Source: Plumapathes pennacea (taxonomy: Eukaryota > Cnidaria > Anthozoa > Antipatharia > Myriopathidae). Taken from it: 64,000 nt of DNA. The position numbers and the translations under genes were made by a program. A model generated the notes under the pieces. It saw only the letters and a program-made list of their open reading frames with translations. It was not told the origin of the DNA and did not search any database. The DNA lies in NCBI GenBank assembly GCA_964036295.1, contig OZ038470.1:16994436-17058435 (forward strand). Direction: 5' to 3'. Below are positions 6,807 through 43,200 of the stretch, piece by piece (position 1 is the first letter of the stretch; the number at the start of each line of letters is the position of its first letter).

Positions 6807-9800
6807 TTAGTAGTAGTAGCCTTGTGCATGCCCGACTAGTCTTCCATAGTAGTGTCCAATGTCATATCCATGTCCGTAATTGTACACATGTCCTGTAAGT
6901 ACATAGGGGTCAAAAAGTTCATTACCTCTTCAACGCGCGAGTCGGCTTTTAAAAATACAGTTACGAAAAGGTTTGCATACCTGGGTCTTCGTTAGTCTCT
7001 TCTGCAAGTAGAAAAAGAAGAAGCGTCTTAAATTCGTGTCCAGAAAACTAATATTTTCACTCAAAGGACATTATAAACCCCACCCTACACCCCAAGTAAT
7101 GATAATTGAGCCCGCGCACAATCCAGCGACTTCTTTTGTAACAGCATAATATTCAAGATGGCGGGGATATATGACTGGATGATTCAGAGAGAATTTGAAG
7201 AAAATACCTTATCGTGGAGGATGAACTGAGCAGCGAAAACCCCACTAGGGATGTTTAAGGTACAAAAGGCTGAATATTAACAAGAATCATTTAGTTTTGC
7301 CGAATTTATACCGATCTGTTCACAGTAACGTTCAAGCGTATTTTGATCGCTAATTGCAGGGCCAGACACCGACAGACATTACCCTTTCTGTCACGGAAAA
7401 TAAGCCAATTACGGAATGCAAACTGCGGGACTGGAAGGGCACTGAGGTAGTGATATCTTGGAGAAAATGGCGCCCCGACAAGACAGCGATGATTAAATGT
7501 GATAGTGACTTTGTCAAATGGGACACTGGACAGTTTAAAGAGCTGAGAAAGTGGTGAAGGTAGGTTATATGTGGCGTAGCTTATTAATATTAAATATATT
7601 ATCATATTAATTAATGACAGTATTATTATTACTACTGAACAATAATACTCTGAGCCTATTTCGTTTGTTTGACGGCTTCTCCAGCAAAATAAGAAGCTCT
7701 AAAAGTATATTTAATGACTTGTTCAAAGTCAGTTCAAATAAATTACAGCTTATTTCTACAGCTATGGTGCGAAAAAGACTTGCAAGTTGCTGTGAACATG
7801 TTATGGCTGTGCACAAAACATTTGAATCTATCCTTGTATCAGACTGTAAATACAGTACACAATTCTATCACAATAATTGGCATGATGTCACCTACTGTTA
7901 TTATGCCTATCAGAATTCAATTTGTTGTTAATTAAGCAAGTGAGTTATTTGTTTACTGGTTGTACGACAATGAAAAGAAGTGTGTGCAAGCAATGCTTAT
8001 TGCTATAAATCTACATACCTGGTACATCTTCCTTGTTCTTATCATCATCTGTAGAAGCATAAAATTTATGGTCATCAGTATCCTCACCATTAGAAAGAGC
8101 TATTACAAAATCCAAGGTATGGGGATTAAGCAACATAAAAAAGAATAGAACAATATAAAAGTTAAAATAGGAGATAAAAAGCTACACAGGGAGCTACACA
8201 GGATATTCTGCACCTTTTTGGTGACACCTTGTCTCTGATATACTCACGCTTTTTGCCGTGACGTCCAAGTCCATGTAAACGATCACGTCCGTGTACCCCG
8301 TGACCGTGGAGTTCGTGACCGTAAAGTCCGTGAGTGTAGAGTCCGTGATGGTGTACTCCGTGACCGTGGAGTCCGTGACCGTGGAGTCCATGTCCGTGGA
8401 TACCGTGACCGTTGAGTCCGTGACCGTAAAGTCCGTGACCGTGGATTCCGTAACCGTGACCTCCATGACCGTGAAGATTGTGTAGTCCGTGCAATCCGTG
8501 AGTTGTAAGAAGGCTGTGAAGATCTGTACCCTTTAAAAGATGTTTTACACTCTTAAGTCCTTCGGCGATTCCCAGAGCCATTCCGTGGGCGATTCCGTGA
8601 GTCGCTCCAAGGGTCAATCCATGTGCCAGGCCGTGACCAGTTCCGTGACCAAGACCGTGGGAGATGCCGTGACCAACTCCGTGACCGATGCCGTGACCAA
8701 TTCCTTGGCCGGCAGCCTGAGCAATGTGGCGAGCTTTTCCGTTGCCAGCGGCAGTACCAACAATGCGGCCGGCCGCTGAACCGGCAGCGTGAGCCTTCGC
8801 CTTGTTTACTTTAAGGACGTGTACGTTACCATGACGACCTGTTAGAAGATAAATCAAATCACATATAAATTCAAAGTATAGTTTCCAGAACACAGCGTTT
8901 AGAGGGACAAGTATTAATATGAACGAGTGGCGGTGTGTCCATAACCCAAGTTAAAACTGATGTTGGTGACCTGAATCTGCATTAGGATATATAGGTTTAT
9001 GAGATTAGTGTCAGAGGTATTTAGTTCCCGCTTAATAGCGGTCCCAGTAAAGGGTTATAAAGGATTTTCTTCTCAACCCTACAACTTTTACGGCGAACAC
9101 ATCTCAAGTTTTGTAACCTGAAATTCATTGATGGATGTTCGTTGTTCGTGAGACCCGACTTGTGTTTTGTTAGGTGATCATGTGATCATAAGTACAAACT
9201 GTTACCTTTCGGGTCTTCGCTTAGCTCTTCGCTGGTTTCGTCGCTAATTTCTTCGCTGTCGTCTGCAAGCGAGAAAATCATGTTGTCAAAACTTTTTGTG
9301 TTGGGTTAAATGAGTTAAGACCGTGCTCGACATACGATTTAGAATACTCACAGTATTTGCCATTATGTCCGTTGTGTCCATTATATCCGTGGTGTCCATT
9401 ATGTCCGTTGTGTCCATTATATCCATGTCCGTGATGTCCATGACCCTCATGGATGCGGTGTCCATAACCTTTGGTGGCAGCAGAATAGAGTCCATCTATA
9501 ATTCCGTTAGCCATTCCTGCAGCGAGTCCATGAGCAGCTCCGTCAGTCAGACCATGAGCCAGTCCATGTCCGGTTCCATGTCCGAGACCGTGAGATACTC
9601 CGTGTCCAACTCCGTGACCGATGCCATGTCCAAGTCCTTGTCCAGCAGCATTAGCGGTTGACTGGGCGGCTCCACTTCCAGCTTTAGCTCCGGCACGACT
9701 ACCAGCAGCACTACCAGCAGCATGAGCCTTTTTCGCGCTTGGAACAATGTGAGCCTGTGCGCCACCACGATGTCCGTGATGTCCGTGATGTCCATGGGAT

Positions 9801-12800
9801 CCAAGGGATCCGTGATGTCCCAGATGTCCTTGGTGCCCGTGATGTGAACGATGTCCCCATCCATGCCCTGTTTTTAGTATACGTTGCATGAATAAAGAAA
9901 AAAGTCGTCAACAACGTGACGGACTAGAATAGATTCTATCAGTCTGTTACCAATTTCAGTGTGCTTTTCCGTGTGAATTATGCTATTGCAGGATTTCACA
10001 TGTATGTGATGGTTGGTTGTTGCTGAGGTGTTTTTGACTGTGCTGTTTTATAGCGTTTACAATGAAAAACATTTGTTTTGGTGAGTGTTGATCTGAGGAG
10101 TTTTTATAACGACACTAATTTTTCTAACCTTTAGGGTAATCGCTGAGTTCTTCACTAGTTTCTTCACTGGTTTCTTCGCTGTCGTCTGCAATACATGAAA
10201 CCGGGATACTCAACATCTCTTGTGAGACGTAACATAAGTGCAAATCAAATGCAATCGATCTTTATTTAGATTACGTACCGTATTTCTTGGTAAGTCCGTG
10301 ATGTCGGTGGTGTCCATTATACCCGTTGTGTCCGTGATGTCCGTGATGTCCGTGATGTCCATGACCCTCATGGATGCGGTGTCCATAACCTTTCTTGGAA
10401 GCAGAGTAGAGTCCATCGACGATTCCGTTAGCCATTCCTGCAGCGAGTCCATGAGCAGCTCCGTCAGTCAGACCATGAGCCAATCCGTGTCCGGTTCCAT
10501 GTCCGAGACCGTGAGATACTCCGTGTCCAACTCCGTGACCGATGCCATGTCCAAGTCCTTGTCCAGCAGCATTTGCGGTTGACTGGGCGGCTCCACTTCC
10601 AGCTTTAGCTCCGGCACGACTACCAGCAGCACTACCAGCAGCATGAGCCTTTTTCGCGCTTGGAACAATGTGAACCTGTGCGCCACCACGATGTCCGTGA
10701 TGTCCATGGGATCCAAGGGATCCGTGATGTCCGACGTGGCCTGCGTGACCATGACCATGATGTCCGTGATGTCCGTGATGTCCGTTGTACCCGTGATGTC
10801 CCTTGTTTCCAAGGTGTCTGTTGTTTCCATGGTGACCCTTGTATCCACGATGTCCATTATGTTCGTTGTGTTCCCAGATGATGTGGTGAGCTGTCATAAT
10901 CAAAGCGTCAATTTTAACATACAGAAAACTACCAAACAATCTCCAAATACTTCTCTTAATATTAGGTCCATGTACGAAGTTTGATCCCGATTTGCATACG
11001 CAAAGCAATAGCAACCACTTTCGAGAGTGGATCTCTTGAAGTTAGTGGTTTAGCTGATATTTTGACTTACTTGCTGGGTCTTCTGTTTCCTCGGCTTCTT
11101 CGCTATCACCTTTAACACGAAAACAAACAAAAAAAAATGAAAAATTTGCTTCGATTCTATCTTAGATTTTGTGGATACTGTGAAAACATTTTGGGGAAAG
11201 TGTGCTGAATGTTGGGTAGTTTTAGATTAGTTTTGATAGGATATTAGTAAAAGATGCTTTGAATCGCTGAAAGTTAATGTAGGCAGGCTAACAGAGCGCC
11301 TGAAGATTGCCTTGGTTGACGTTTTAAACCTCCACCCTTTGTGAGAGTAGAAACAGGTTAGTTCGTTTGTTGCTGTTGTCACTGAAACATGACCACTGGG
11401 TACATAATACGTACCGTAGATCGCCTTGCCGTGCTGTCCGTGTCCGTAGTACGGACCGTATTGGTAACCATAACCGTTTAATTGAGCGATCAGCTTCTTC
11501 ACAATAAGTGACGCCTGCTTGAGCCCTTCGTTGATTCCCTGTACCATCCCTGTGGCAAGTCCGTGGGCTGCTCCATGAGTCAAGCCATGTGCCAGACCAT
11601 GTCCAGTTCCGTGACCAAGACCGTGAGATACTCCGTGTCCAACTCCGTGACCGATACCGTGACCAAGTCCTTGTCCAGCGGCTTGAGCAACGCTCTGGGC
11701 GGCTCCACTTCCAGCTTTAGCTCCGGCACGACTACCTGCAGCACTACCAGCAGCATGAGCCTTTTTTGCGCTTGGGATAATGTGTGCCTGTGCGCCACCA
11801 CGATGTCCGTGACCCTGATGGACTGCGTAACCGTTAACATTGTATCCGAGATGGCCTGCGTGACCATGGCCATAATGTCCGCGATGTCCTGCGAAAGAAC
11901 ACCGCGTTTACATTAACTATTTCTGCTTGAAACCATCGCTACACTTGATGTGAGCCTAGCTTTCCGATATGCGAACCTTTCTTTAACTTTGGTTCTGTTA
12001 TTTTTGCCTGGTCAAATCTTTTTCAGTCTAAACACAAGTCCTTCAATTTTTTTTTCGTTCTTGTCTTTGTTTATGTGGGCAGCCAAATTGAAAGTTAGAT
12101 ATATTGGCTACTCTATTTTATAACAAATGCCCCTTTTAGAAAACAGAACTGATAATCTCTTTTTTGTATTTCACACTAGCTTCATACTAAATATAGTTAT
12201 CAATTACATCAAGTAAAGGACTTCGGTTGCCATGAAATGTTCAAGAAACTTTGAAATATCGCACCTAATGCGTCCTCGCTGGTCTCTTCGCTGTCGTCTG
12301 AAAGAGAAGAAAATACGACGTTAAAACTTCAACTGCTGAAGGTGTAAGCAGTCTTGTGTACATCCTAATGGGTTTTGCTGTTAAGTTTAATTTGAACTGA
12401 CAGAGAAACAACGGTGCAGTAAAAAGGTTTTAAGACGTACAGTTCCCAAGAGAGGTTAATTCGATAACCTGACTTCAACCGAACGTCAAAGAAGTTGCAC
12501 TACTTCTTGAACTTAGAAACGTTCTTGCTCATTAACTTCCCTCGTACGTATGTTCCCCATTAGATCATGTAGATGTTAATACACTCTGTCGTATTGGTAC
12601 TGCGTATCTCGTATCTAGTATACTCACAGTAATACTTGTTGTGCGAGCGCCTGGAGTGAGCCCATCCCCGGCCCCATCCGGAGCTCCACCCTCCGCGGTG
12701 CCCCTGGTAACCATGGTAACCATAGTCACCTGTGAGGCAAATGAGGACGTCATCATGCGAATCCAAGAATATGTTTTCACAAGTACTGTACTAGCATTCC

Positions 12801-13908: not shown

Positions 13909-13970
13909 GACTGCACTTCGCTCCTTCAGACTCGAAATGCTGTTCTTGCTAAATCTTGAAAGTGTTCGGG

Positions 13971-13978
13971 TTTTTATA
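13971..13978 (-). promoter_or_regulatory. TATA box of HGR-A
   Basis: TATAAAAA on the minus strand, 63 nt upstream of the ATG at 13908. With a start site about 30 nt downstream the 5' UTR would be about 30 nt, leaving no room or need for a 5' UTR intron. Confidence 0.75.
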
Positions 13979-17466: not shown

Positions 17467-17472
17467 TTTATT
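17467..17472 (-). terminator. Poly(A) signal of HGR-B
   Basis: AATAAA on the minus strand, about 180 nt after the HGR-B stop codon at 17653. Confidence 0.65.
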
Positions 17473-17652: not shown

Positions 17653-20600
17653 TCACATGGACTCGTCATCTGGAAGACAATCCCAAAGAAAGTTTAAAAT
17701 CATTGCATAAAAAAAATGTTTTATTGTACATCACTTACAATGTGCTTAGCCTCGAGACAGGGGAAGTTTTTGTGGACTTTCCTAGCTTGACTTTAATTAG
17801 AAATATGCAGCATAGGTACCAAACTCAAACTTAAGGAGAGCTCGAGGTTTTTTTGAGTTGAACAGCAGACATTTTATTGCAAAACATCTTTGAGATACTC
17901 ACAGTATTTGCCATGATGTCCGTGGTGTCCACCATGTCCGTATCCACCATGTCCGTGATGTCCTTTATGTCCATGACCTTCGTAGATGCGGTGTCCATAA
18001 CCTTTCTTGGAAGCAGAGTAGAGTCCATCAACGATACCGTTGGCCATTCCTGCAGCGAGTCCATGGGCAGTTCCGTCGGTCAGACCATGGGCCAATCCGT
18101 GTCCGGTTCCATGTCCGAGACCGTGAGATACTCCGTGTCCAACTCCGTGACCGATGCCATGTCCAAGTCCTTGTCCAGCGGCATTAGCGGTTGACTGGGC
18201 GGCTCCACTTCCAGCGGCAGCTCCAGCACGACTACCTGCAGCACTACCAGCAGCATGGGCCTTTCCCCTGCTTGCGACGTAGTGGGCCTGTCCGCCATGG
18301 TGTCCGTGTTTGCCATGATGTCCATAATGTCCGTGGTGTCCGTGGTGTCCCTTCCAGGATGCGTCTTCCTCTTCATCGTCTATCAAGTGCAAGATGATGT
18401 GAAGAGTCAGCACTTAACTTTTCATTAGCAACTTTAAACAAAACAATCAGCAAATTAAAAAAAGGCACACAAAAAGGAATTTGTATCTACAGGTCTTTTT
18501 TGTGTTCATGCAAACTTAAAAACTGATGGTTTTTAAATACTCGAAGATATTTATCCTTTTAAATTTTGAAATAAGCAAGGTCGGTAAAGGAGTTTGGCTC
18601 TGATAAAAATTGAGGAGAAAGCGTTTCAAACAAGACTATGTTCTCTTGCAAAACCCAATTTTTACACGAAGTCGCTGTAGAGATTTGTGACAACTTACAA
18701 TATTTGCCATGATGTCCATATCCACCATGTCCGTATCCACCATGTCCGTGATGTCCTTTATGTCCATGACCTTCGTAGATGCGGTGTCCATAACCTTTCT
18801 TGGAAGCAGAGTAGAGTCCATCGACGATACCGTTGGCTAATCCTGCAGCGAGTCCATGGGCAGTTCCGTCGGTCAGACCATGGGCCAATCCGTGTCCAGT
18901 TCCATGTCCGAGACCGTGAGATACTCCATGTCCAACTCCGTGACCGATGCCATGTCCAAGTCCTTGTCCAGCAGCATTAGCGGTTGACTGGGCGGCTCCA
19001 CTTCCAGCGGCAGCTCCGGCACGACTACCTGCAGCACTACCAGCAGCATGAGCCTTTCCCCTGCTTGCGACGTAGTGGGCCTGTCCGCCATGGTGTCCGT
19101 ATTTGCCATGATGTCCATAATGTCCGTGGTGTCCGTGGTGTCCCTTCCAGGATGCGTCTTCCTCTTCATCGTCTATTAAGTGCAAGATGATGTGAAAAGT
19201 CGTCACTTAACTTTTAAATAATGAATTTAAACAAAACAATCAGGAAATTATAAAAAGGCACAAGGAAAAGGAATTTGTATCTACAGGTTTTTTTGTGTTC
19301 ATGCAAACTTAAAAACCGATGTTTTCAAACACTCGGAGATATTTATCCTTTTAAAATTTGAAAGAAGCAGAGCCGGTGAAGGAGTTTGGTTTTGGTAAAA
19401 ACTAAGAAGAAAAAAGTTTCAAATAAGAATATGCCCTCTTGCAAATCCCAATTTTTACACAAAGTCGCTGTAGAGATTTGTGACAACTTACAGTATTTGC
19501 CACCATGTCCACCACATCCACCATGTCCGCATCCACCATATCCTTTATGTCCATGACCTTCGTAGATGCGGTGTCCATAACCTTTCTTGGAAGCAGAGTA
19601 GAGTCCATCGACGATACCGTTGGCCAATCCTGCAGCGAGTCCATGGGCAGTTCCGTCGGTCAGACCATGGGCCAATCCGTGTCCGGTTCCATGTCCGAGA
19701 CCGTGAGATACTCCGTGTCCAACTCCGTGACCGATGCCATGTCCAAGTCCTTGTCCAGCAGCATTAGCGGTTGACTGGGCGGCTCCACTTCCAGCGGCAG
19801 CTCCGGCACGACTACCTGCAGCACTACCAGCAGCATGAGCCTTTCCCCTGCTTGCGACATAGTGGGCCTGTCCACCATGGTGTCCGTGTTTGCCATGATG
19901 TCCATAATGTCCGTGGTGTCCGTGGTGTCCCTTCCAGGATGCGTCTTCCTCTTCATCGTCTATCAAGTGCAAGATGATGTGAAGAGTCAGCACTTAACTT
20001 TTCATTAGCAACTTTAAACAAAACAATCAGCAAATTGAAAAAGGCACACAAAAAGGAATTTGTATCTACAGGTTTTTTTGTGTTCATGCAAACTTAAAAA
20101 CTGATGGTTTTTAAATACTCGGAGATATTTATCCTTTTAAATTTTGAAATAAGCAAGGTCGGTAAAGGAGTTTGGATCTGATAAAAATTGAGGAGAAAAC
20201 GTTTCAAACAAGAATATGTTCTCTTGCAAAACCCAATTTTTACACGAAGTCGCTGTAGAGATTTGTGACAACTTACAATATTTGCCATGATGTCCATATC
20301 CACCATGTCCGTGATGTCCTTTATGTCCATGACCTTCGTAGATGCGGTGTCCATAACCTTTCTTGGAAGCAGAGTAGAGTCCATCGACGATACCGTTGGC
20401 TAATCCTGCAGCGAGTCCATGGGCAGTTCCGTCGGTCAGACCATGGGCCAATCCGTGTCCGGTTCCATGTCCGAGACCGTGAGATACTCCGTGTCCAACT
20501 CCGTGACCGATGCCATGTCCAAGTCCTTGTCCAGCAGCATTAGCGGTTGACTGGGCGGCTCCACTTCCAGCGGCAGCTCCGGCACGACTACCTGCAGCAC

Positions 20601-23600
20601 TACCAGCAGCATGGGCCTTTCCCCTGCTTGCGACATAGTGGGCCTGTCCACCATGGTGTCCGTGTTTGCCATGATGTCCATAATGTCCGTGGTGTCCGTG
20701 GTGTCCCTTCCAGGATGCGTCTTCCTCTTCGTCGTCTACAAAGTGCAATTGGATGTCAAAAGTCGTCACTTAACTTTTATGGTCAAACAAAACAAAATAG
20801 TTTACGGAAAGGAATTTGCATGTGGAAGTACTTGAGATTTTTTGATTTATAAACGTTGAAATAAGCAATGTCTGTAAAGGAGTTGTGCTATGATAAAAAT
20901 TGAGAAGAAAATGCTTAAAACAAGATTATGTCCTTTTACAAAAACCAAATTTTACATGAAATCGCAGTACAAAATTCTGACAACTCACAGTATTTGCCAT
21001 GATGTCCGTATCCACCATGTCCGTGATGTCCTTTATATCCATGACCTTCGTAGATGCGGTGTCCATAACCTTTCTTGGAAGCAGAGTAGAGTCCATCGAC
21101 GATACCGTTGGCCAATCCTGCAGCGAGTCCATGAGCAGTTCCGTCAGTCAGACCATGAGCCAGTCCATGTCCGGTTCCATGTCCAAGACCGTGAGATACT
21201 CCGTGTCCAACTCCGTGACCGATGCCATGTCCAAGTCCTTGTCCAGCAGCATTAGCGGTTGACTGGGCGGCTCCACTTCCAGCGGCAGCTCCGGCACGAC
21301 TACCTGCAGCACTACCAGCAGCATGAGCCTTTCCCCTGCTTGCGACGTAGTGGGCCTGTCCACCATGGTGTCCGTGTTTGCCATGATGTCCATAATGTCC
21401 GTGGTGTCCGTGGTGTCCCTTCCAGGATGCGTCTTCCTCTTCATCGTCTACAAAGTGCAGTTGGATGTGAAAAGTCGTCACTTTTATTGTTAAACAAAGC
21501 AAAATAGTGCACGGAAAGGAAATTGCATTTGGAGGTACTTGTTTTGACATACATTAACATTGGGTAATTTTTATAAACTTGTGGAGAGTTTTTAATCTGT
21601 AAACGTCGAAATAGGCAATGTCTGTAAAGGAGTTGTGCTACGATAAAAATTGAGAAGACAGTTGCTTAAAACAAGATTATGTCCTTTTGCAAAACCCAAA
21701 TTTTACATGAAATCGCTGACAAAATTCTGACAACTTACAGTATTTGCCGTGATGTCCGTGGTGTCCACCATATCCACCATATCCACCGTGTCCTTTATGT
21801 CCATGACCTTCGTAGATGCGGTGTCCATAACCTTTCTTGGAAGCAGAGTAGAGTCCATCAACGATACCGTTGGCCAATCCTGCAGCGAGTCCATGGGCAG
21901 TTCCGTCGGTCAGACCATGGGCCAATCCGTGTCCGGTTCCATGTCCGAGACCGTGAGATACTCCGTGTCCAACTCCGTGACCGATGCCATGTCCAAGTCC
22001 TTGTCCAGCAGCATTAGCGGTTGACTGGGCGGCTCCACTTCCAGCGGCAGCTCCGGCACGACTACCTGCAGCACTACCAGCAGCATGGGCCTTTCCCCTG
22101 CTTGCGACGTAGTGGTCCTGTCCGCCATGGTGTCCGTGTTTGCCATGATGTCCATAATGTCCGTGGTGTCCCTTCCAGGATGCATCTTCCTCTTCATCGT
22201 CTATCAAGTGCAAATCGATGTGAAAAGTCGTCACTTAACTTTTAAGTAATGAATTTAAAAACAATCGGCAAATTAGAAAAGGCACAGGAAAAGGAATCTG
22301 TATCTACATGTGTTTGTATTCATGCAAACTTAAAAACCGATGTTTACAAACGTTCGGAGATATTTATCCTTTTAAATTTTGAAAGAATTAAAACCGGTAA
22401 AGGAGTTTGGCTTTGGAAAAAACTGAGAAGAAATACGTTTCAAACAAAAATATGTCCTCTTGCAAAACCCAGCTTTTACATGAAGTCGCTGTAGAAATTT
22501 GTGACAACTTACAGTATTTGCCACCATGTCCACCACATCCACCATGTCCGCATCCACCATATCCTTTATGTCCATGACCTTCGTAGATGCGGTGTCCATA
22601 ACCTTTCTTGGAAGCAGAGTAGAGTCCATCAACGATACCGTTGGCCAATCCTGCAGCGAGTCCATGGGCAGTTCCGTCGGTCAGACCATGGGCCAATCCG
22701 TGTCCGGTTCCATGTCCAAGACCGTGAGATACTCCATGACCAACTCCGTGACCGATGCCATGTCCAAGTCCTTGTCCAGCAGCATTAGCGGTTGACTGGG
22801 CGGCTCCACTTCCAGCGGCAGCTCCGGCACGACTACCAGCAGCACTACCAGCAGCATGAGCCTTTCCCCTGCTTGCGACATAGTGGGCCTGTCCGCCATG
22901 GTGTCCGTGTTTTCCATGGTAGCCATGGTGGCCATGTCCACGATGTCCCCAGTGGTGACCTGGAGTGAGGATCGTCGTAATTTTAATTGAACATTTTCAA
23001 TTATCATACAGCTGGTTGATTAGGGTGTGCTTTTTGTCTCCAACATCTTTCATATGAATGTAGTTCTCACTAAGAAACTGAATGTGTGTTGAAGCGTTCC
23101 TTTTTTTGAATGTCGGACGAAATTGTTTGGTGTGATTAGTTTTTTGTTTGGCTCGGTGGCATTGGCGCTATTACTTGATTGGTGGGCTTGTTTTAATTGT
23201 ACTGCGAGACCAATTGATGTGGTTTGTCTTATCGGTGGGATTTACGTTATGTTTAAATTGACTAACCTGGATCTTCGCTTATTTCTTCAATGGCGTCATC
23301 TGTAGGAAAGCATAACAACACAAGATTAAATACGGTTTTTTCAACTGGCTCTGGAGGCTGTAGAAAGATATGTAAAGAACGATTTAGTATTTTTTAACTG
23401 AAAGCTCTTAAAAGCCTGGAGAGACACGTGCTGATCTCCTAAAGAAGACACACCACGAAACGACCTTCGTATAACTACTAGACGTTTAACTGTAAGTAGA
23501 AACCGTTGTAATCGAACGGTTTTCTTACAGTAGATGTGCTTGAGTTGGTGGAATATATGAGCTGCAGCCTTAAGTCCTTCCTTGATTCCTTGGGCCATTC

Positions 23601-25345
23601 CTACGGCAATTCCATGAGCTGTTCCTTCTGTCAGTCCGTGAGCGAGTCCGTTTCCGGTACCGTGACCGAGACCGTGCGCGACTCCGTGTCCAACTCCGTG
23701 ACCGACGCCATGTCCAATAGCTTGTCCGGCAGCATTAGCGGTTGACTGGGCTTTTCCACTTCCAGCGGCAGCACCGGCACGTCCACCGGCAACACTACCA
23801 GCAGCATGAGCCTTTTTCTTGCTAGGAACCAGGTGATCCTGTGCGCCACCATGGCCGTTATAAGTTGCGCGACCGTGACCATGATGTCCCCACGGACCGT
23901 GTTGTCTCCACAGACCGTGATGGCCATGGTTATCCCATGCTATACGACAAATTAAAACTAATCTAACAAACTTATCTAAAAGAGTTGCCGCTATAAGGGT
24001 GGAAAGGGTTCTCTATTCTTTTCTTGTTTCATCTCTCTTCCCTTTTACTCTAAATTCCTATGGTAATACCAATTGTGGCCGAGCTGTATTACCAAACGGA
24101 AACCTAAGATCAGCATGCAATAAAATTAATAATAGTAGCAGAAGACATGTTTTGTTGTAATTAGGTTAGCAAATTAGTACTTGTTGTAGTAGTACATGTA
24201 GCTGTTGTTATTGTTGTCAGTGGTAGTTGTGATTTGCAGTATCAGTAGTTGTTGATGTTGTAGTTGTTGTAGATGTAATATGTGTGTCAGTAGAAATGTG
24301 TCGTCGTTGTGGTAGTAACGTTTAGTAGTTGAGTGTAAGTTTGTGGTTCTATTAATTGATGATTTGTTATCGTTTTTGTTACAGCTGCGTCTCGTCAGTG
24401 ACCGAAAAGTGGAGTTAACATGGACTGGACATGTGCAGAAGGTATGGAAGTTTGCACTTACCAAGATCTTCATCCTCAAACACCTCTGTAATAAGAGAAA
24501 AAATAGGAATGTTGATGTAAATTCGGTTTTGGGGTAAGCAAATTGAAGGGCCCCACCTTGAAATCACTGGGGAAATTTTGTATACCACACCATCAGTATT
24601 TACGTCAGCATAATATATTATAAAAAGTGCGCACTAAACGCCAAACACTTGAGGTTATTTTTGGCAAAGGGTGCTTTTTTGAACATTATGATGAATGGAA
24701 ATTTTAAAGAAATGAATTCTAAGCAAATTTAGTGAGTGATACAACAAAAGTTAAATTTGTCAATTGGCCGACTTTTTGTATTGTTCGCTTTTTCTGGCAG
24801 CGATTGTTTAGCTTTGAAGTGGAAGTAAATTTGCGCAAATGTAATGTGCTTACCTGGCTCATCACTCAGCAGCAATTCTTCCTCGAATTCTGTAAAACAT
24901 CGAGAAAATACGGAATCTCATTATGCAGTAACTAAATACAGTTAAAATTGAATAATTTAATGCTCTCGCAGTTCGAAAATACGAGACGAGTCGCTGGTAG
25001 CTTAAAAGTGAACAAATTTTGTCGTTTCCAGTTTAGTTGATAGCAAATTCTGTACGTATTGCTTTTTAGAAGGTAAACTAAAAAAAACTAACAGTACACG
25101 AGGAATTTTCGTACCCAAAACCTCTGAATCCCGATGGTATTTTTTGTGCACAATTCTCATCGAGTCGAAATCTTTTGCTTATCGCTCAAAATTAAGAAAC
25201 AGAAAGAGATACAGGCAAATATTTCAGTCAGAAAAAGGTGAAGAAAAAGACGAAATGCGATGAAGGACAAATGGTACATACCGGGCAGCGGTGCTGCGCT
25301 GACGTAAGCAGCCAAAAGAAGCGCGGCTAAGACCCAGAACCTCAT
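17653..25345 (-). CDS. HGR-B: secreted modular His/Gly-rich protein with six near-identical exons
   Basis: Exons: 25345-25282, 24889-24854, 24485-24462, 23939-23529, 23299-23267, 22959-22513, 22200-21739, 21447-20989, 20735-20277, 19959-19492, 19172-18699, 18379-17903, 17669-17653. All coding introns are GT-AG and phase 1; the sum is 1276 codons plus stop without a frame break. Residues 1-18 are a signal peptide (MRFWVLAALL start, cleavage near SAAPLP). Acidic mini-exons cover 22-41 and 179-189. His/Gly blocks cover 42-178, 190-338 and six repeats (339-492, 493-645, 646-798, 799-954, 955-1112, 1113-1271). The protein ends YDESM. Each repeat opens with an acidic DEEEDASWK segment, then GHHG spacers, an AHAAGSAAGS stretch, the xHG-hydrophobic tetrad tract, a helix ending GLYSASKKGYGHR, and a GHGHKG/GKY tail. 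Exon skipping would keep the frame. Function unknown; paralogue of HGR-A. Confidence 0.85.
17903..22200 (-). repeat. Six-copy tandem exon-plus-intron array (HGR-B exons 7-12)
   Basis: Exon starts at 22200, 21447, 20735, 19959, 19172 and 18379 give a period of 712-793 bp. Exons differ mainly by small indels in the GHGG tail and scattered substitutions. The introns also align (for example an AAACAAAACAATCAG element and a TTTTTACACGAAGTCGCTG element recur), so whole genomic units were duplicated, not only coding sequence. Short-read assemblies may have miscounted copies. Confidence 0.92.
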
Positions 25346-25400: not shown

Positions 25401-25408
25401 TTTTTATA
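25401..25408 (-). promoter_or_regulatory. TATA box of HGR-B
   Basis: TATAAAAA on the minus strand, 56 nt upstream of the HGR-B ATG at 25345, the same geometry as HGR-A, HGR-C and HGR-E. Confidence 0.75.
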
Positions 25409-31055: not shown

Positions 31056-33412
31056 TTAGTAATAGGCGCCATATTCAGAACCCCAGCCACGTGACTCATA
31101 ACCGCTATGCTGTCCTCCCCATCCGTGCTCCCAGCCGGCCTCGTATTCGTGTGTTCCGTAATTATTGATGGGATGCCCGTAGTTGAGCCCTTCGTACGGT
31201 CTGGGTTGCTTTGTTGGATGAACTTCCTGTCCGTAGATTTCATGCTGCTTCCAGGGTTGCACATAATTGATGTGCCCGTAGGGTTCGGGATTCTTCGTTG
31301 GCGCGATCTTTACTCGGTGTTCTTCGGGTTTCTGTCGGTAGTAGACTGCGTGCTGCTTCCATTGGTACACATCGGGTTCGGGGTCTTTCGTTGGCACGAT
31401 CTTTACTCGGTGTTCTTCGGGTTTCTGTCGGTAGTAGACTGCGTGCTGCTTCCATGGGTACACATCGGGTTCGGGGTCTTTCGTTGGCACGATCTTTACT
31501 CGGTGTTCTTCGGGTTTCTGTCGGTAGTAGACTGCGTGCTGCTTCCATGGGTACACATCGGGTTCGGGGTCTTTCGTTGGCACGATCTTTACTCGGTGTT
31601 CTTCGGGTTTCTGTCGGTAGTAGACTGCGTGCTGCTTCCATGGGTACACATCGGGTTCGGGGTCTTTCGTTGGCACGATCTTTACTCGGTGTTCTTCGGG
31701 TTTCTGTCGGTAGTAGACTGCGTGCTGCTTCCATGGGTACACATCGGGTTCGGGGTCTTTCGTTGGCACGATCTTTACTCGGTGTTCTTCGGGTTTCTGT
31801 CGGTAGTAGACTGCGTGCTGCTTCCATGGGTACACATCGGGTTCGGGGTCTTTCGTTGGCACGATCTTTACTCGGTGTTCTTCGGGTTTCTGTCGGTAGT
31901 AAACTGCGTGCTGCTTCCTCGGGTGCGCATGGCTGATCTTCCCGTAAGGCGCGGGAGTCTTCACTTTGTGTTCTTCAGATTTGCTGGCTGGGCGCTTGTA
32001 GCCTATGTGATGTATCCAGGAGTAGCCATGCATTACCTCACCGTAAGGTCGTGGATCTTTTGTGGGCACAATCTTTTTTTCGTGTTCTTCAGGTTTAATG
32101 GTTGGGCGCTTGTTCTTCATGTACCCCATATGATACTTCCAGGCATAAACATTCCTCTGTCCGTAAAGTTTCGACTCTTTCTTCTTAGGCTTGGTGGTTG
32201 GGCGTCTCTTTTTGTACAGTACACGCTGCTTCCAAGGATACATGTTGCTCTTCTCTCCGTACGGTTCTGGTTCTTGTGCGGGTGTCGTCTTCACCTCGTA
32301 TACTTCAGGTTTCTTCTCTTTTTGTCCGTAGATTGATTGCTGCCTCCATGGTTGCATGTACCTATTCTCCCCGTAAGGTTCGGCTCCTTTCGTGGGGTGG
32401 GTTTTAACCTCGTGCTTTTTCGCTTTTGCGTGTTTGTCACCATATACACCTGGCTGTTTAGTAGGGTTTACCCGCGCCGTTTTCTTCCCATACGCTTCAT
32501 GACCCCAACTACCGGCATACTTCCAACCTCGACTATGGTAGCCACGACCCAAGGATTTTGGATATACTCCAGGTTGAGCGTAACCTTCAGGATATAGAAA
32601 GTAATTTTGTTAAGTTACAGATAATGAATAGAGTCGAATCCAGTTCCTAGGCTGGCGGTCTTAGTAGATGCGGGTGAACAGTACCTCCAAGCGCCATTTT
32701 GTATTACGCCAGAAAAGAGACTAGGGAGAGCGACAATGTGGCGAATTTGGGGGGGGGGGGGGGGGGGGGTGTAAGCTGGGCTTAAAGCGTTAGACCCTTT
32801 GTCAGAGCACGTAATAATAATTAGGCTCGGCTAGAGAATTTAAGAAATGCGTGACAACGGCCAAGAACTCGAAAACGTGACATGGACTACAGTTCGAGAG
32901 AGCGTGACAGTGACAACAGCCTAAAAGGTTAAAAAAAATACTGTGAATGCCGTGACTATATTTCATTGTGTTACCATAAGGTTCTTCAACTTTGTAGTCG
33001 TCTTCTTGTGCCAGTTCCTCGTCAAAGTCATCTAGAAAAGATACACGTCTCGATCAGTCTCGTTTCCACGCACTTTTCCGCCGTTTGGGCCTGCACACCA
33101 CAGCGGTACTTCTGATAAAGGCACAACATTCAAACATGGCGGGTTCGGGAAGGTAAACGGTTGTATGTTTTCAGTGTGCTCTTGACTGCAAAATGCATAA
33201 TCTGGGATATCGTGTTTGAACTATACATGGGCCCCAAGTCAATTCTGAGATAATTTTACGCAAAGGAAAAAAAAAAAAAAAAGGAGGAAAAATATAAATT
33301 TCCTTGAACAGAGACGGTATTCGTTCATACCTTCGGCAGGAGCTTCTCTAATGCTCGCTCCTTTGACAGAAGCGGCACCCAAACACAACAAGGACAAGAG
33401 CCACAGATTCAT
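31056..33412 (-). CDS. HGR-C: secreted repeat protein, seven 31-residue repeats
   Basis: Exons 33412-33331 (signal peptide, start MNLWLLSLLC), 33031-32975 (acidic, Asp/Glu-rich) and 32584-31056 join in phase 1 to 555 residues. The long exon has a Tyr/Gly/Trp/Lys-rich N-terminal part with loosely repeated PYGE/PWKQ units (about 47-267). Residues 268-482 are seven tandem repeats whose core is PWKQHAVYYRQK then PEEHRVKIVPTKDPEPDVY. The C-terminus is Gly/Tyr/His-rich and ends GAYY. Shared gene design (signal exon, acidic phase-1 exon, biased exon, TATA, 3' UTR intron) ties it to the cluster although its repeat is not the xHG type. Abundant Tyr, Lys and His would suit cross-linked extracellular material (inference). 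Confidence 0.85.
31277..31920 (-). repeat. 93-bp tandem repeat, seven copies
   Basis: The marker TGCTGCTTCC (+ strand) recurs at 31351, 31444, 31537, 31630, 31723, 31816 and 31909, exactly 93 bp apart. Interior copies look almost base-identical; the two edge copies carry most of the changes. Because 93 is a multiple of three and the unit has few stops, several other frames are also open across the array, including a 409-codon frame on the + strand. Confidence 0.97.
32749..32769. repeat. Poly-G run of 21
   Basis: Uninterrupted 21-base G tract (C tract on the coding strand) inside intron 2 of HGR-C. It is a likely length polymorphism and an assembly or sequencing weak point. Confidence 0.9.
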
Positions 33413-33466
33413 CTTCGCTTGTTGTTCGGGGATCAGATTTCTGGTGAATTGCCTTTAGCATCGCTG

Positions 33467-33474
33467 ACTTATAT
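33467..33474 (-). promoter_or_regulatory. TATA box of HGR-C
   Basis: TATATAAG on the minus strand, 55 nt upstream of the HGR-C ATG at 33412. Confidence 0.75.
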
Positions 33475-34519
33475 ACCTTGCCGTTGGCAGCTAATTTTGT
33501 ACAAAGTTCCCGACACAATGGTCCCTGGGATAGCACGCACATTACCAAGACAAGTGTCTGCGTCCTTGTGCTCTGTTGCCAATTAATTAACTCCTGAATT
33601 TATATTTGGCTTGCAATTTGCGTACGACAGGCTTTTTCTTGCTCCTTTTTGTCCCGAGGCTCCAAACGTTGCAAGACACCTAGTGCACTGTTAATTTACA
33701 GACACCTCTGTGTCGCGTAACTTTTAACCAAAATAAAAGAGAGATATTTTGGTTTTCATATCTCTCTCATTTTTTTTCTTTGGCTCTGTCTTTTTCTCCC
33801 TCTCCCCATCCTTTTCCTTCTCTCTCGCTCTCAGTCTGTTCTTCCTACCAAGCTGACAGTTTTGTCAAAGTCCGTTACGTCCTCGTTATTACAGCAACAA
33901 GCAGACGATTTTCACCTAATACTTCAAGTTTCTCTAAATTTTGAAGTATATCTTATTTTTATGTTTTATTGTTTTGTAATTTTAGAAAAAGGAGTGATAG
34001 ATTTTCTTTTATTTGAGCTGATTCTTTTATGTTAATTTGTTGATGCGTTCCGTTCCACTTCAAGGAAAATATATTAACTAATGTTTCTGCGCTGCTATAA
34101 TTTTATTAGGCATGGTTCAGGATTACGTCATCAGCTCTCAAAATTTCTCAAAAATAATATTAAAAATTGCCTTAAAGTTACGTAAAATAGTATGTAACTC
34201 ACGATGTAAAATTGCGCGACACACCAAGTTCTCGCGTTCAAATAGGTTGGTCCATTCGAGCAAAATTTTGGCGTGCAAAGTATTTTCTAAATAGCTTACG
34301 TATGTGATGGAAGATTAATATAGCTCTTTTACCCTAGCTAAAATTAGCGACAATTTTTCGTCGAGTCTTTCCACGGTTACGGCTACCAAGCGACATGCTT
34401 AATTCCGCAATATAGTTGCAGCTGTGTGTTTGGTTTTCAAGCATGGAATTCTCAAAGTTTTCTTTTTCCTTTTCACATGTATCTAGAAATTTGAAGGCAC
34501 GAGAATATCAGCAGAGTAC
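33475..34519. other. Intergenic spacer HGR-C to HGR-D
   Basis: About 1 kb of AT-rich DNA without a credible gene, including a TCTCTC-rich stretch around 33735-33840. Confidence 0.6.
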
Positions 34520-34652
34520 TTTATTAGCAATTTTCCACAAGCTTCATTAAAAAAAACACAGATAAAATGACATCCTAGAGTAAGGGTAGTTGCTGTCCAG
34601 TCTTCAGGTGACAAGCTTGCTCCTTTTTAACCCAGGCATGGCGCCATCGAAC
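34520..34652 (-). terminator. Last 3' UTR exon and poly(A) signal of HGR-D
   Basis: Minus-strand acceptor TTTTCTTCAG/GTTCG puts the exon start at 34652. AATAAA lies at 34525-34520. Confidence 0.65.
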
Positions 34653-35097
34653 CTGAAGAAAACGTAGCAACAGCGAAGCTTAATAGCAAGATAGTAAGTA
34701 AGAACTTCCTTCTCTCCTTCCTGTCTTTCTTTTTGTATGTCTTTCTCCCTTATCATCTTTTTTTTCTCTTTCCTTTTTTCTCTTCTTTTTACATTGAGTT
34801 ACTTCGCTTGGGTGTTGTCGTTGAAATAGTTTAGGGTCGTAGCCTTAGTTCTCTCTCCATGAATCACATTTGATCATCCCCTCCATTTCAGCTGGAAACT
34901 ACAAAATAAATAACGTGTCTCCTACTCATCATAGATTAATTACATGAAGAATGATTATGTCCTTGTTACTTCACTAAATGAATACATTTACTGTGACGCT
35001 AAGATTCTTCGATCAATGAATGGAACTAGTAAGGTCCGTAGAGATCAAGACATTTACTTGGTGTGAGAACCTTACCGTTGGCGTTTCGCTCTTCATT

Positions 35098-37817: not shown

Positions 37818-38042
37818 GGCGTCTGAAATGGCCAGGTTTAGCCTCTTAGGTATTTCGCACTCAGCAACAGTCGTGGGTTCTTCCTCACAGTCTCTTCTCA
37901 CATTCTTGTTTATGTTACCCGGCGTGACACGAGTATCACCAACCAATTCAGTGCGAGTATTTGCTATCAAAAGTAGATATGGCGCAATTTTGATGTGACG
38001 GCGTCCGCTTTTAACGACAAGCACTGTATCTGTGACATTCAT

Positions 38043-41000
38043 ATTGCTGGATAGTCAGGTTGTACGGGCGGAACTCGGCCAATATTACAACGCAGATGTG
38101 CGTGTGGTTTTGTGATGGAGGCCGATATTTCATTTCAAGTGTGCATTTTCAAGGCATAGCCATACACGGAGCTTAACAAAGTTCTCAGTGTAATATCCAT
38201 GTTGAAATTTTCATTAGCTCAAATGTCAAACCTAGTTATTTTTCAGCTGGCTTTAGTGGATATAGTGATATTACGAAGGGTCGATCAAAAATCTGAAAAC
38301 AAAAGCATAAGACGGAATAACTTCAACCTTCTCACAAAAATAGACGGAAGTCGCGGTGGCTCGCCTTGTCTGCTCTGTTATAACAACAAGGAATTATAAG
38401 TAAAGATTGTGGTTGAAATCCCTTCACGTTTTCCCTCCGTGATTATTAGTTTTTATTTCAATATTGATAAGTCCCAATCGTTTTCTGCCCGCGGAATTTT
38501 AGTAAAATATGTCACAGATAATCGTTGATGTTTTGAGAATATTTCCCATATGCCAATATCTCTTCTCACTTAGTAGTGCCGACCACTAAGAAAGTCTTCT
38601 CATTTCCGGCAGAAAAATCAAGCCCTTCACTGTGAGAATTAAGAAAACATAAAGCCCATATCATGAAGTTCAGTTTACAATTTGTCGTCAAGCTTAACTC
38701 GACAAAAAATTATTTTCCTGCGGCCGTATAGCTTCAACCTTGTTTTTCTGTATATTACGCATTCCGCCCTTCAAGAACCATTGTTTTTAATTTCGGCTGA
38801 AGCTTTTGTTCCTCCGTTCAAAGCAAACTGTTGTTGGTAGCTGATGTAATTAACTAAAGTGATCGTTGGTATTGAAATATTTGTTGGGTCAGATTTGCGA
38901 ACGAAACGTGATGACCTAAAACTGACCCGCGTGCAGCGGTGCCACGACGCCTGCTCAGTGACACGGTCTGAGAGCACAGCTTGAGTGTTTTAGTGTTTGC
39001 CTTCTTCTGGCTCAGCTTTCGCGCTTTCTCTGCGATCAAGTTTCGCTTCACATAAGAAAGCTTGATGATCCTCTCACTAATTTCCACCTTAGTCATTTTC
39101 ACCGACAATGCCGCACATGCGGAGAGAGACCTTGTCTTGACCGTCAGTTTCTTATGAAATGCACTGATTCAAAAATAAATCACCGAGCGAATCACCATAT
39201 TAGACCACCTGAAAGATGACAGACCTCAATGGAAATCTCCAGGGAATTATAAAGATACTGGTCACCTTCTTAGTTTCTAGCATCAATAGGCTGAAGATGC
39301 GTTTGATGTTGTCCAGGACTACAAAAGGGGCATGACGTATTTATGTTAGTGTTTATATTCTACTGAGTACACTGCTTTCGGCTTTCTACAAGTTTTTTTT
39401 TAAGCAAAGATACCAAAACTGCGAGAAAGGGCGGCATAAATTGTTTTGATTATCTGACGACATTATATTGTTCTAGCAATGTCTTTTAAGCCACGAAGTG
39501 CCCAACCTGCGTCTAGCATGACGTCATCCCCGAAACCTCTTGTTCGCACTGTCGATAACTCGGTCTGATTGAGCCGAGAAACGTCGACTGTTCACACTCC
39601 ACTCGTATTTAGCCTAGATTGATCTTAACTGCCCAGTATGAACGGACTCTTAAAGGCCAAAGGCGTATTGAAATTTCCCATTCGATGTAACATTTGGATG
39701 CACTGGGACCAATTCAACAAAACATTTACAAGTGTATTTTACAAGTCGGACCAATTTTTTCCACACGTTAAAACACACTTTAATCCAATACAATGGCCAA
39801 ATACTGTTTTGGTTGTACACTGGGGACCTGTATCTGTAATATTGTACAGACTTTTCTAGAGTAGAATCCGTTTAGTGGTCTTTGGATAATGTTCCAACTT
39901 GTAAAATACTCGAGTAAATGTTTATTGAATTGGCTCCTGGTGTGTTTTTACAAGCCCGTCTTGTCAAGCGGTAATCCTCAAGTCCTATCAACACCCAAGT
40001 ACATTATCTCCCTACTACCCTAGAACAGGAACGTACACTACAGTGTAAAGAACTTAGCATTTGATCACTCACACAAAGCAGGCAGCTGATCCAACAATGA
40101 ATTCTCTTTATATATATCATACTCTGATGAATGTTAGGGAGAAATTGTATTTCGAGATAAAGATGATTCATATGGTGATAAAGCTTATACAAACGGGGAA
40201 GTAGGAATAGTGGAGGATAGTGAAGTGTTCTGAAAAATGTTAGGACTTCAACGAATTCAAACTCAAGTTGTCCCGGGGACCAGAGGCACCCTCTTCTCGA
40301 GTCACCCTGGCCACGGGCAATTATTCAGTCATTTCTTTATAAATCGAAGCGAGACATTTGCATTAGAATTTTTCGCAGAGGGTATGGGCACTTCTTTTCA
40401 TATGAACATTTCACCGTGATTATAAAGAAATTTGTGAGTAGTGGGAGCACCAAGGGTGGGTCCTAGGGACATTTTGTTCTTCATATAAACAGGACCTTAG
40501 CTGCTTCGTAACTGAAGAGGTTGATGTCATTAGCCCTTGGTTTAACTATTGCCTATGATCGTGTGGAGGTCAATTCATAAGGTAAACCTCGATCTTTCGA
40601 ATAAGTTCTACATACTCTTTACACGTCTCCGTCAAGGCGTTGATTCGAACATGCAAATATCATGCTAGTTATGTTTGTTGTTGTTGTTGTTGTTGTTGTT
40701 GTTACAGAGTCTGAACATTCGCACGACTGAAGTAAAGTGGAGATTTTGAATCAACTGTCGTCCTGCAGTCAAGCTTTAAGCGCGACGTTTGAACAGGGCC
40801 TCACAAAACTGATTACCACATATTGTGCCGGATTTTGCGCCAGCTCTATGTCAATGCCTTATTTTGTGATCGAGTGCTTTGTCTTTGCATTTTCGTTGAA
40901 ATGTTGAAATGGTGATCCATACTTGATAATTTTTACTTCTCATTCTTTTTTTTTTCAAGTATGATCAGTATGCAATAGTCTTGCTTTCATTTCGTAAAAA

Positions 41001-41220
41001 GAGCGACTATTTTGTAAAATATAAATCAGTGGGATCTGTTAGTTCGCCAGATGTAGTGAGAAAAGCGCTTCGAGAAAACATGCGTTGTACTGGGGCGACC
41101 AATACCCATCAACCGAAACATTTACTTCAAGTTATCATGAATGGAAGAGTATTCTCTTTATTATCACCACATGCAGTACAGTATAATACAATGCAAATCA
41201 AATAAATCTGGAGTATAGTT
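38043..41220. other. Intergenic spacer HGR-D to HGR-E
   Basis: No credible gene. It holds a MITE (39702-39940), a (GTT)n microsatellite near 40677-40703, and a minus-strand open frame at 38854-39108 (start MSVKMTKVEI) that is basic and unrecognised. A TGACGTCA motif occurs near 39520. Confidence 0.5.
39702..39940 (-). mobile_element. MITE copy 1 with about 50-bp terminal inverted repeats
   Basis: Left end CTGGGACCAATTCAAC... and right end ...GAATTGGCTCCTGG are inverted repeats that extend through ACTTGTAAAATAC. Its interior is the reverse complement of the element at 51361-51596, so the two copies sit in opposite orientations. It is non-coding. A target-site duplication was not clear. Confidence 0.85.
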
Positions 41221-41226
41221 TTTATT
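41221..41226 (-). terminator. Poly(A) signal of HGR-E
   Basis: AATAAA on the minus strand. A 3' UTR exon acceptor (AACTTCACAG) lies near 41354, and the donor TTGG/GTATGT follows the stop codon by ten bases. Confidence 0.6.
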
Positions 41227-41714
41227 TCCATTTAAGCCTAAAAGGCACATGCACCCTCCCTAAAAAACTACAAGACAACACTGAAGGCGACACAGTCGTT
41301 CTTGATCTTGTATAAACATACTTCGATAGCCAACAACACGTCAGGAAACCTGTGAAGTTTAAAGAAGAGAATTAGCTCAAAGATTAATTCCGCGTTGTGT
41401 TGTCACATTCTTTGACGTGCTGTTCTAAGTGACATTGGCTTTATTCAATTGATCAGTCTATTACTGTTTCCCACTGACTCCATTTCATTGCCATATCTCT
41501 ATCTCCAAATTAAGTGTTAAAATCTGAAAACATGAGCTCGGCACAGCAGTGTTATGAGCACTGTTAGTGAATGGTCAAAAACTTCCTGGTTTTATTTAAC
41601 AGTTTGGATTTGGCACTGAAACTAGTATAACAATATACTGGACGAGACCTTTCACTTCAGCGGTCACATGACATTTGTAGCAAAAGAGAATGGAATACAC
41701 ATACCCAATGCTGC

Positions 41715-43200
41715 TTAGTGCTTTCCGTGATGGACGCCATATCCGCCGACCCGTCCGTGATGTGCGTTTCCGTGATGTCCCTTTCCGTGACCGTGCTTGA
41801 GTCCTTGTTGTTTCTTGTGGAGCTCTAGGGCGAGAAGACGTGCCTTGTTGAATCCGATCTTGAATCCAAGTCCCTTTCCGTACTTGAAGCCGATGTTGTA
41901 GCCAACTTTCTTGGCCGACGAGTAGCCCATCTTGTTCACGGCTGCCTGAATTTTCTTCAGGTTGACACCACTAACGCCACCTTTGCCGAAACGTTGCGTT
42001 AAAGCGTGCACTGCCTTTCCGTGGTCAATGTAATGTCCCGCTTTATGCCCCGCGTTATGTCCCGCGTAGTGTCCCGCGTGATGTCCCGCGTGATGTCCCG
42101 CATGTTTTCCATGTGTTCCGTGATGTGTTCCGTGATATCCTGCAGCGTGACGTTTCAGAGCGAGCGCATGCGCTTTAAGGGCGAGTTTATGGGCGAGTTG
42201 ACCTGTGTTAAGGTATTATAGTTGAGAAATAATAGAACCTTTTCGAATTACTACAACTGATCGATAAACGAAAGAAGTGCAGCTTTTGTACCGAGTGTAC
42301 CTCATGTGTCATGTGATATCCTCTTCAATATCTTGCTGTGTTTTGTGGAATTTCAAGAATTCACAAGGATCTTTGATTTCTTCTATATTTTTTCAGTAAG
42401 TTGCTACTAAAGCGTGATAGTTCTTCTATAGAAGACTATATAAATACTCAAATATACAAATATATTGAAAGATGTTTGCTGATGTTTGCATGCTGCTCTA
42501 TAGTGAAATGTAAAAGATGCATTTTTTACCAGATGGATCCTCCCATTCCTCCTCTACAAAAGAAAGAAAATATATTGGTTAATATTTATAAGTTTCGGAA
42601 AGCCTGGTCAAAGTATGAAACTGCACTTGACGACAAAAGTGTCAGGTGTAGCGACAGAACATTCCATCCTAAGTATTTTCTCTGATTTTCTTTTATTTCC
42701 ATTTTATAACACTTGGGAGTGTGTGCAGGAGTTTCGTCGGCATTTGAGCAGAGCAGTTTCACATTGTGCTTGAAATTGGATTATGCGCAGTGGTTTCAAA
42801 ACTGATTCTTTGCTTCTGCATGTCTCTTATTCCTTACCTTCCTCGTCTTCTTGCTCTTCTCCTGAAGGCAGCTCCCTTTCTTGCGCCTTTACTAAGAGCT
42901 CTATAAGAAATACGATATATTTTTAAGCCATGAAGTGAAATACAAAGCATAAGGAGACAACGAGAGAGAGAGAGAGAGATAGAAAGAAGAAGAAGAATAG
43001 GAAAGGGACTGAAAGACAGAGATGCAAAGAAGTGTATATATGGGAATTATGAGAGAAACAAAGGGGGAAAAATCTAAAACGGGATAGCTAAAAATGTAAA
43101 CTACTCAAATAGAATTCTGACCTAAAGCGTCCTCTTCCTTTACAGGAGCGGCGCTTATGGAAACGACGAAAAGCAGCAGAAGAACAGCGAAGAGCTTCAT
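41715..43200 (-). CDS. HGR-E: small secreted Lys/His/Gly-rich basic protein
   Basis: Exons 43200-43122 (signal peptide MKLFAVLLLL..., cleavage near ISAAP), 42900-42838 (acidic, ends EEQEDEE), 42553-42530 (EEEWEDPS) and 42202-41715, all phase 1, giving 217 residues. The main exon has an Ala/Leu/Lys-rich amphipathic start, five or six AGHx tetrads (AGHHAGHHAGHYAGHNAGHK), a non-repetitive Lys/Gly/Phe segment (FKYGKGLGFKIGF) and a GHH-rich end closing in GKH. The acidic pro-segment followed by a strongly basic domain recalls antimicrobial or matrix-protein precursors, but neither role can be shown here. The exon 1 donor (GTCAGA) is weak. Confidence 0.8.

Follow-up and report, generated by a model that had tools for sequence, protein, structure and literature searches.

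A candidate family of predicted secreted repeat proteins with a common phase-1 exon grammar in Plumapathes pennacea

Five neighboring genes of the antipatharian Plumapathes pennacea (GenBank assembly GCA_964036295.1), referred to as HGR-A to HGR-E, were analyzed as candidate secreted repeat proteins. They lie in a window of 64,000 nucleotides, which is the whole stretch of contig OZ038470.1 analyzed here (C9:16,994,436-17,058,435 in our searches of the genome, 290 Mb in 24 contigs). The sequences spoke for a single exon grammar and, in most members, for descent from one secreted ancestor. The grammar, a signal exon with a phase-1 exit followed by one or more acidic exons and one or more exons of biased composition, all joined by phase-1 introns, was found in HGR-A to HGR-E and in a further gene (gene G) at a second place in the genome. 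The signal exon, the phase-1 grammar, the alternation of charge, the promoter layout, the exon-by-exon duplication, and purifying selection in HGR-A and HGR-B were all observed in the DNA. The original prediction had described a five-gene cluster; this was too narrow, as the family comprised at least 14 gene starts at six places.

Gene models and exon grammar

The models of HGR-A to HGR-E were built from genomic DNA alone. As predicted, all five genes lie on one strand, here the minus strand (positions 6,807-43,200 of the window), and each model was open from ATG to stop without internal stops. The predicted proteins of HGR-A, HGR-B, HGR-C, HGR-D, and HGR-E had 948, 1280, 555, 353, and 217 residues and were encoded by 15, 12, 3, 3, and 4 exons, respectively. 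The 32 introns (14, 11, 2, 2, and 3 in the same order) were all GT-AG, and none of the exon joins created a stop codon.

HGR-A (13,908-6,807) comprised a signal exon (13908-13833), acidic exons (13418-13344, 13133-13107, 12297-12265, 11109-11071, 10185-10129, 9262-9206, 8099-8019, and 7001-6981), and histidine/glycine-rich (HG) exons (12729-12628, 11888-11415, 10890-10279, 9867-9352, 8838-8248, and 6892-6807). HGR-B (25,345-17,874) had the order signal, two acidic, HG, acidic, HG, and six fused acidic and HG exons. Its signal exon lies at 25345-25282, its separate acidic exons at 24889-24854, 24485-24462, and 23299-23267, its HG exons at 23939-23529 and 22959-22513, and its fused exons at 22200-21739, 21447-20989, 20735-20277, 19959-19492, 19172-18699, and 18379-17874. 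In these fused exons (exons 7-12), an acidic stretch DEEEDASWK was joined to the HG exon, a variant that the original prediction lacked. The remaining genes were HGR-C (33,412-31,056), which is rich in Lys, Pro, Tyr, and Glu, HGR-D (37,817-35,522), and HGR-E (43,200-41,715). The last exons of HGR-D and HGR-B contained a donor-like site just 5' of the stop, and the modeled ends of both genes are thus uncertain; the last exon of HGR-D may be spliced further.

The first splice-site scans required phase 1. In the phase retest, the exon frame was fixed, and all GT/AG sites around each boundary were ranked with any phase permitted. For each of the 32 introns, both the top-ranked donor and the top-ranked acceptor were in phase 1. 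At the B4 donor, the B4 acceptor, and the A13 acceptor, the top-ranked site differed from the model, yet it was also in phase 1. The claim that every coding intron of the five genes is in phase 1 was therefore upheld with the phase left free, although the retest is weaker for the short acidic exons, whose frame was picked by composition, and strongest for the HG exons. A part of the grammar is generic, because phase-1 introns are described as over-abundant near the signal-peptide cleavage sites of secreted proteins (PMC1626468).

The five genes contained 15 separate acidic exons of 6-26 codons; the original prediction had given 7-25 codons as usual. Counted by eye, six of the 15 ended at the junction in EDP or DEP, and in three more, EDP lay one residue earlier. 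The net charge was -2 to -13 for acidic exons, 0 to +23 for HG exons, and +35 for exon 3 of HGR-C; a single HG exon contained up to 49 histidines. As the exons are symmetrical (1-1), blocks could be gained or lost with the frame intact; this would account for rapid change of the interiors within a constant grammar.

HGR-A, HGR-B, HGR-D, and HGR-E contained 15.6-27.4% Gly and 11.0-16.4% His, with 16% His in HGR-A and HGR-B. All the predicted repeat types were detected, namely a 93-bp repeat encoding 31-mers in HGR-C (6.9 copies, 31281..31918, minus strand), a 6-bp repeat in HGR-D (7.7 copies), a 12-bp repeat in HGR-E (5.8 copies), and tetrads in HGR-A and HGR-B. The pattern HG..HG..HG..HG occurred 18 times in HGR-A, 30 times in HGR-B, twice in HGR-D, and in neither HGR-C nor HGR-E, compared with a maximum over 300 shuffles of one for HGR-A and zero for the other four. 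At its end, exon 12 of HGR-A carried 11 GHGL[YHN]-type pentads, detected as a 15-bp repeat (8298..8473, minus strand), and residues 288-344 of the same protein (exon 8, 10279-10890, minus strand) formed Gly-X-X triplets, a third repeat period beside the tetrads and pentads.

Shared core, further members, and descent

A core of about 85 residues (KAHAAGS...GLYSA) was present in 12 copies in 12 exons of HGR-A and HGR-B: four in exons 6, 8, 10, and 12 of HGR-A (8250..11886) and eight in exons 4 and 6-12 of HGR-B (17905..23937), all on the minus strand. In the alignment of the 12 copies, 53 of 81 positions were invariant, and seven successive tetrads of the core placed His at every fourth residue. 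The ratio of non-synonymous to synonymous substitution rates (dN/dS) was 0 to 0.40 across the 66 pairs. Of the variable codons of HGR-B exons 6-12 (B6-B12), 14 varied synonymously and one non-synonymously (p 1.6e-7, with codons treated as independent). These exons were 91-98% alike (15 of 21 pairs shown), and the introns between them were 68-98% alike (15 of 15 pairs). The core exons of HGR-A and HGR-B are thus coding and under purifying selection, and their residues matter. Judged from their sequences, HGR-A and HGR-B are plain paralogues. The original prediction that the interiors of all five genes had expanded independently was thus ruled out for HGR-A and HGR-B, which share this selected core.

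With a profile hidden Markov model (HMM) of the core, HGR-D scored 7.7 bits (E-value 1.6), and none of 1000 full and none of 1000 local shuffles reached this score (best 7.2 and 4.4 bits, respectively); the trace is weak. HGR-E, suspected as a core carrier from its GX3 tetrads, was rejected (-7.0 bits, with 927 of 1000 full shuffles equal or better), as was HGR-C: of 1000 full shuffles made, 353 received a score, and 192 of these reached that of HGR-C. By this model, the core was found in HGR-A and HGR-B, was faint in HGR-D, and was absent from HGR-E and HGR-C. A match of the core query at C2:10,663,469 (35% identity, seven internal stops, E 3e-6) was taken as chance composition.

Outside the window, HGR-D gave weak matches containing stops (C9:14.29-14.30 Mb), and from these a second place was found where acidic and HG exons alternate in this way. 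Gene G at this place had the order signal-acid-HG-(acid-acid-HG)x3, with 12 exons, 359 residues, and all 11 introns in phase 1; a relative with a different exon structure would have told against the prediction, and this gene, sought within the same genome, has the same grammar. Gene F at the same place encodes the same signal exon protein. Used as a query (E up to 10), this signal exon matched seven places. Besides F and G, these were three near-identical genes at C9:14.98-14.99 Mb and a pair of genes at C8:1.15-1.16 Mb. The C8 signal exon in turn matched 11 places including its own (E up to 10), with new ones at C9:14.92 and C9:15.09 Mb, where 3 kb was read at each. Each of the 11 matches was a gene start of this family, with acidic exons and HG or Tyr-rich exons downstream. 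HGR-B (E 0.032) and HGR-A (E 0.26) were matched weakly in this search, and HGR-C, HGR-D, and HGR-E were not matched. In total, nine further gene starts were found outside the window at five places on contigs C9 and C8. A search with an MKLW-type start pattern, which would miss starts like those of HGR-C, HGR-D, and HGR-E, retrieved no further start within 20 kb on either side.

Of 22 HG runs found outside the window, one was spurious (a glycine run without sites). The best donor was in phase 1 in 20 of 21 runs; for the best acceptor, this was the case in 16 of 18. The exceptions fell in two exons of the second gene on C8. Some of the runs belonged to last exons, whose donors were weak, and none was obtained from gene N (15.09 Mb).

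In 13 of the 14 family starts, a TATA-like box lay 62-89 nt upstream of the ATG, against a background of 5.7% of 20,000 random positions with such a box 50-100 nt upstream. As F and G and the three genes at 14.98 Mb are recent copies, the independent count is nearer 10 of 11. In the window, the boxes of HGR-A (13973..13978), HGR-B (25403..25408), HGR-C (33470..33475), and HGR-E (GATATAA, 43258..43264) lie on the minus strand 70, 63, 63, and 64 nt before the ATG, respectively. No TATA-like box was found before the modeled ATG of HGR-D, the sole exception; its start is uncertain, and its first exon may therefore lie elsewhere. The first 17 coding bases were identical in HGR-A and gene F.

The common descent of the signal exons was evaluated with shuffles that keep the regional composition, which controls for composition and not for convergence of signal peptides. 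The scores of HGR-A, HGR-B, HGR-D, and HGR-E were reached by none of 1000 shuffles, and that of HGR-C by 12 of 1000. Real unrelated signal exons were also used as background; with eight of them, this control is too small. One secreted ancestor had been proposed for all five genes. The part of this proposal that stood is that HGR-A and HGR-B are paralogues and that the signal exons of most members are probably related; the inclusion of HGR-C did not gain the same support. HGR-E would belong to the family by its signal exon, promoter layout, and grammar, the only features that link it.

Two of the outside places showed further features. In the three near-identical genes (C9:14973767-14991688), the acidic exons end in DARR or are followed by Arg-rich blocks, unlike those of the window genes, and dibasic processing is possible there. 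The gene pair on C8 lies among hemopexin-repeat frames with Thr/Pro-rich linkers (C8:1144000-1179074) that resemble matrix metalloproteinases by eye; two of these frames were checked, and both scored above the Pfam Hemopexin cut-off.

Proposed nature of the family and alternatives

No Pfam model reached its cut-off for HGR-A to HGR-E or gene G, the queries being the first 499 residues of HGR-A, the first 339 residues of HGR-B, HGR-C cut to 400 residues, HGR-D, HGR-E, and gene G. The nearest models were Collagen (PF01391) for HGR-A (22.7 bits vs. a cut-off of 27.2, E 8e-5, residues 288-344), GRP for gene G (18.4 bits vs. 30), and Yae1_N for HGR-E (14.7 bits vs. 27.5, E 0.026); with its score under the cut-off, HGR-A was not assigned to Collagen. 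A search of solved structures with the core gave weak matches to RON2 (E 7.4e-5) and to CHCHD2 (E 0.013 and 0.015). The GX3 helices of Yae1_N, CHCHD2, and RON2 resemble the HGR proteins in having glycine at every fourth residue, and the similarity is probably compositional; none of the three is known as a secreted repeat protein. A literature search of titles and abstract openings retrieved no description of such a family. In the protein database, HGR-E had no relatives among 752 candidates. A single-exon G protein-coupled receptor (GPCR) of the window, used as a control query, matched 29 proteins, of which the best two were 73-74% identical, and the database thus holds close relatives of the genes of this animal. 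The statement that no named family has this grammar held for Pfam, where HGR-A to HGR-C were scanned in part; in the protein database, HGR-E was the only fair query.

We propose that these genes encode lineage-specific, secreted, charge-alternating block copolymers of a cnidarian, which would condense with pH or metal via histidine, a reading to which we give about an even chance. Each chain would consist of short acidic blocks before or between long, weakly basic His/Gly blocks, with lysine, proline, and tyrosine taking the place of His/Gly in HGR-C. The chains would be stored in acidic secretory vesicles. Upon a rise in pH, as in sea water, or binding of Zn or Cu, histidine would lose its charge and bind metal or stack with tyrosine, and the chains would condense into an extracellular gel or solid (adhesive, spine, cuticle, or matrix). 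In the core, His at every fourth residue would form a stripe along a helix. A bolder version, in which an undescribed cnidarian family arose as copolymers by duplication and exchange of 1-1 exons and the core of HGR-A and HGR-B is a new metal-switched His-ladder helix that sets a secreted solid, is tentative and rather doubtful.

The following results weigh against this proposal of histidine-switched copolymers. HGR-C contained 6.3% Gly and 6.1% His and is not Gly/His-rich, and the case for its common descent is weak. The exact GHGxY motif was absent from HGR-C, HGR-D, and HGR-E. Gene conversion may contribute to the likeness of B6-B12. AlphaFold2 drew helices in the core from the 12-row alignment, with a mean predicted local distance difference test (pLDDT) score of 46 and no residue reaching 70, a confidence too low to count as evidence; exon 4 of HGR-E was predicted with a similarly low confidence (pLDDT 53). 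Restriction to one lineage is also less certain. Among 7992 candidates scored, the first 499 residues of HGR-A matched one protein, P0001 (390 residues), with 24% identity over 49% of the query. In this protein, xAHG tetrads form an array next to a hydrophobic segment, and it looks unrelated outside the tetrads. With the core HMM, it scored 42.8 bits, more than any of its shuffles. Such tetrads can therefore score well by convergence, which is probably the source of its likeness to the core. Moreover, a length limit excluded single-exon fragments for the HGR-A query, which makes absence from the database informative for HGR-E only. Finally, the gene models, the secretion, and the material function are inferred from genomic sequence.

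The known systems closest in mode of action were the histidine-rich beak proteins (HBPs) of squid and Hydra spinalin. Squid HBPs are secreted-material proteins with GHGxY-type repeats, a likeness to the HGR proteins as proposed here; their GHGLY repeats are described as needed for pH-responsive phase separation, with condensation switched by pH via His (PMC6884462). In favor of the copolymer proposal, exon 12 of HGR-A has its 11 pentads of this type, and the exact GHGxY motif occurred once in HGR-A and six times in HGR-B. The copies in HGR-B were spread across repeated exons, and the tandem GHGxY arrangement of squid HBPs was not found. The excerpted description in that source gives no alternation of acidic exons, and as squids belong to another phylum, the likeness would be convergent. 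Silk-like structural proteins (SLSPs) are likewise described as secreted, repetitive, modular, of biased composition, and often lineage-specific; they are a class by properties and not by descent, and a fixed phase-1 grammar of acidic and HG exons is not among the criteria in the excerpt of PMC4944945. Spinalin is closer in taxonomy, being a cnidarian protein that is rich in Gly and His, located in nematocyst spines, and encoded by a locus (nb054) of about 50 kb with many exons and splice forms (PMC2687796, PMC9205923). Its Gly/His-rich composition was found in HGR-A, HGR-B, HGR-D, and HGR-E and not in HGR-C, and the two systems are likened by description, not by sequence. As a special case of the copolymer proposal, the HGR proteins could be structural proteins of nematocysts, like spinalin, and the solid would then be a spine, barb, or tube wall. 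The cnidarian genome, the parallels in composition and locus structure, and the Gly-X-X triplets of HGR-A with their sub-threshold Collagen match favor this possibility; however, direct spinalin orthologues were not identified in Nematostella according to the excerpt of PMC9205923, and we regard it as unlikely.

An antimicrobial polyprotein, in which cationic peptides rich in Gly, His, and Arg would be masked by acidic spacers until they are excised and act on microbes, is improbable to the same degree. It would explain the alternation of acidic spacers and basic blocks and is consistent with the genes at C9:14.97-14.99 Mb, where DARR, which may be a dibasic cleavage site, closes acidic exons ahead of exons rich in Arg, Gly, Tyr, and His. 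However, the dibasic sites listed for the five window genes had no regular position at the borders between acidic and HG blocks, and the core is under purifying selection, whereas fast sequence change is usual in immune peptides. The run of seven core tetrads with regularly spaced His and the His content of HGR-A and HGR-B would also suit an extracellular metal buffer, in which His blocks would store or detoxify Zn, Cu, or heme by binding them. HGR-C breaks this pattern, and long repeat proteins with acidic blocks would point to a material more than to a small carrier; we hold this function, too, to be of low probability. Lastly, the low-complexity sequence, the first scans that demanded phase 1, and the models built from genomic DNA leave room for an artifact, in which short genes unrelated to one another or GC-rich repeats without coding function would have been mistaken for exons. 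This is very improbable given the purifying selection at the codon level, the ranking with phase left free, the TATA-like boxes, and the same structure at an independent place.

Lineage-specific secreted repeat proteins are usually recognized by composition and seem unrelated to one another. In the HGR family, a fixed exon frame, the promoter layout, and, for most members, a probably related signal exon unite differing repeat interiors, which makes their birth and turnover traceable exon by exon. If the pH or metal reading is true, the family would be a natural set of histidine block copolymers for materials tests.

Neighboring genes and other genome features

Several other genes were identified in the window. 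A candidate gene for an insulin-like peptide (4202-5371, plus strand) comprised an exon with a signal and a B-chain-like part (4202-4402) and an A-chain-like exon (5183-5368); the A-chain part scored 22.9 bits for Pfam Insulin, just below the cut-off of 23. On the minus strand, the following exons scored above their Pfam cut-offs: Cas1_AcylT acyltransferase exons (45478-47164) and, within 50825-57743, a double-stranded RNA-binding exon (50825-51175), a CCCH zinc-finger exon with PARP12-like fingers (53923-54882), and a DZIP3-type HEPN exon (55848-57743). The GPCR used as the control query is a single-frame gene of the Rhodopsin family (7tm_1; 60851-61771, plus strand), with database relatives up to 74% identical. 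A search of the genome for GFP as a marker of the organism gave no match, which says nothing either way. Elsewhere, the genome contains a QGRFG-repeat precursor with 18 copies, in keeping with a cnidarian; QGRFamide or GRFamide precursors are reported to be found across Cnidaria (PMC11087051).

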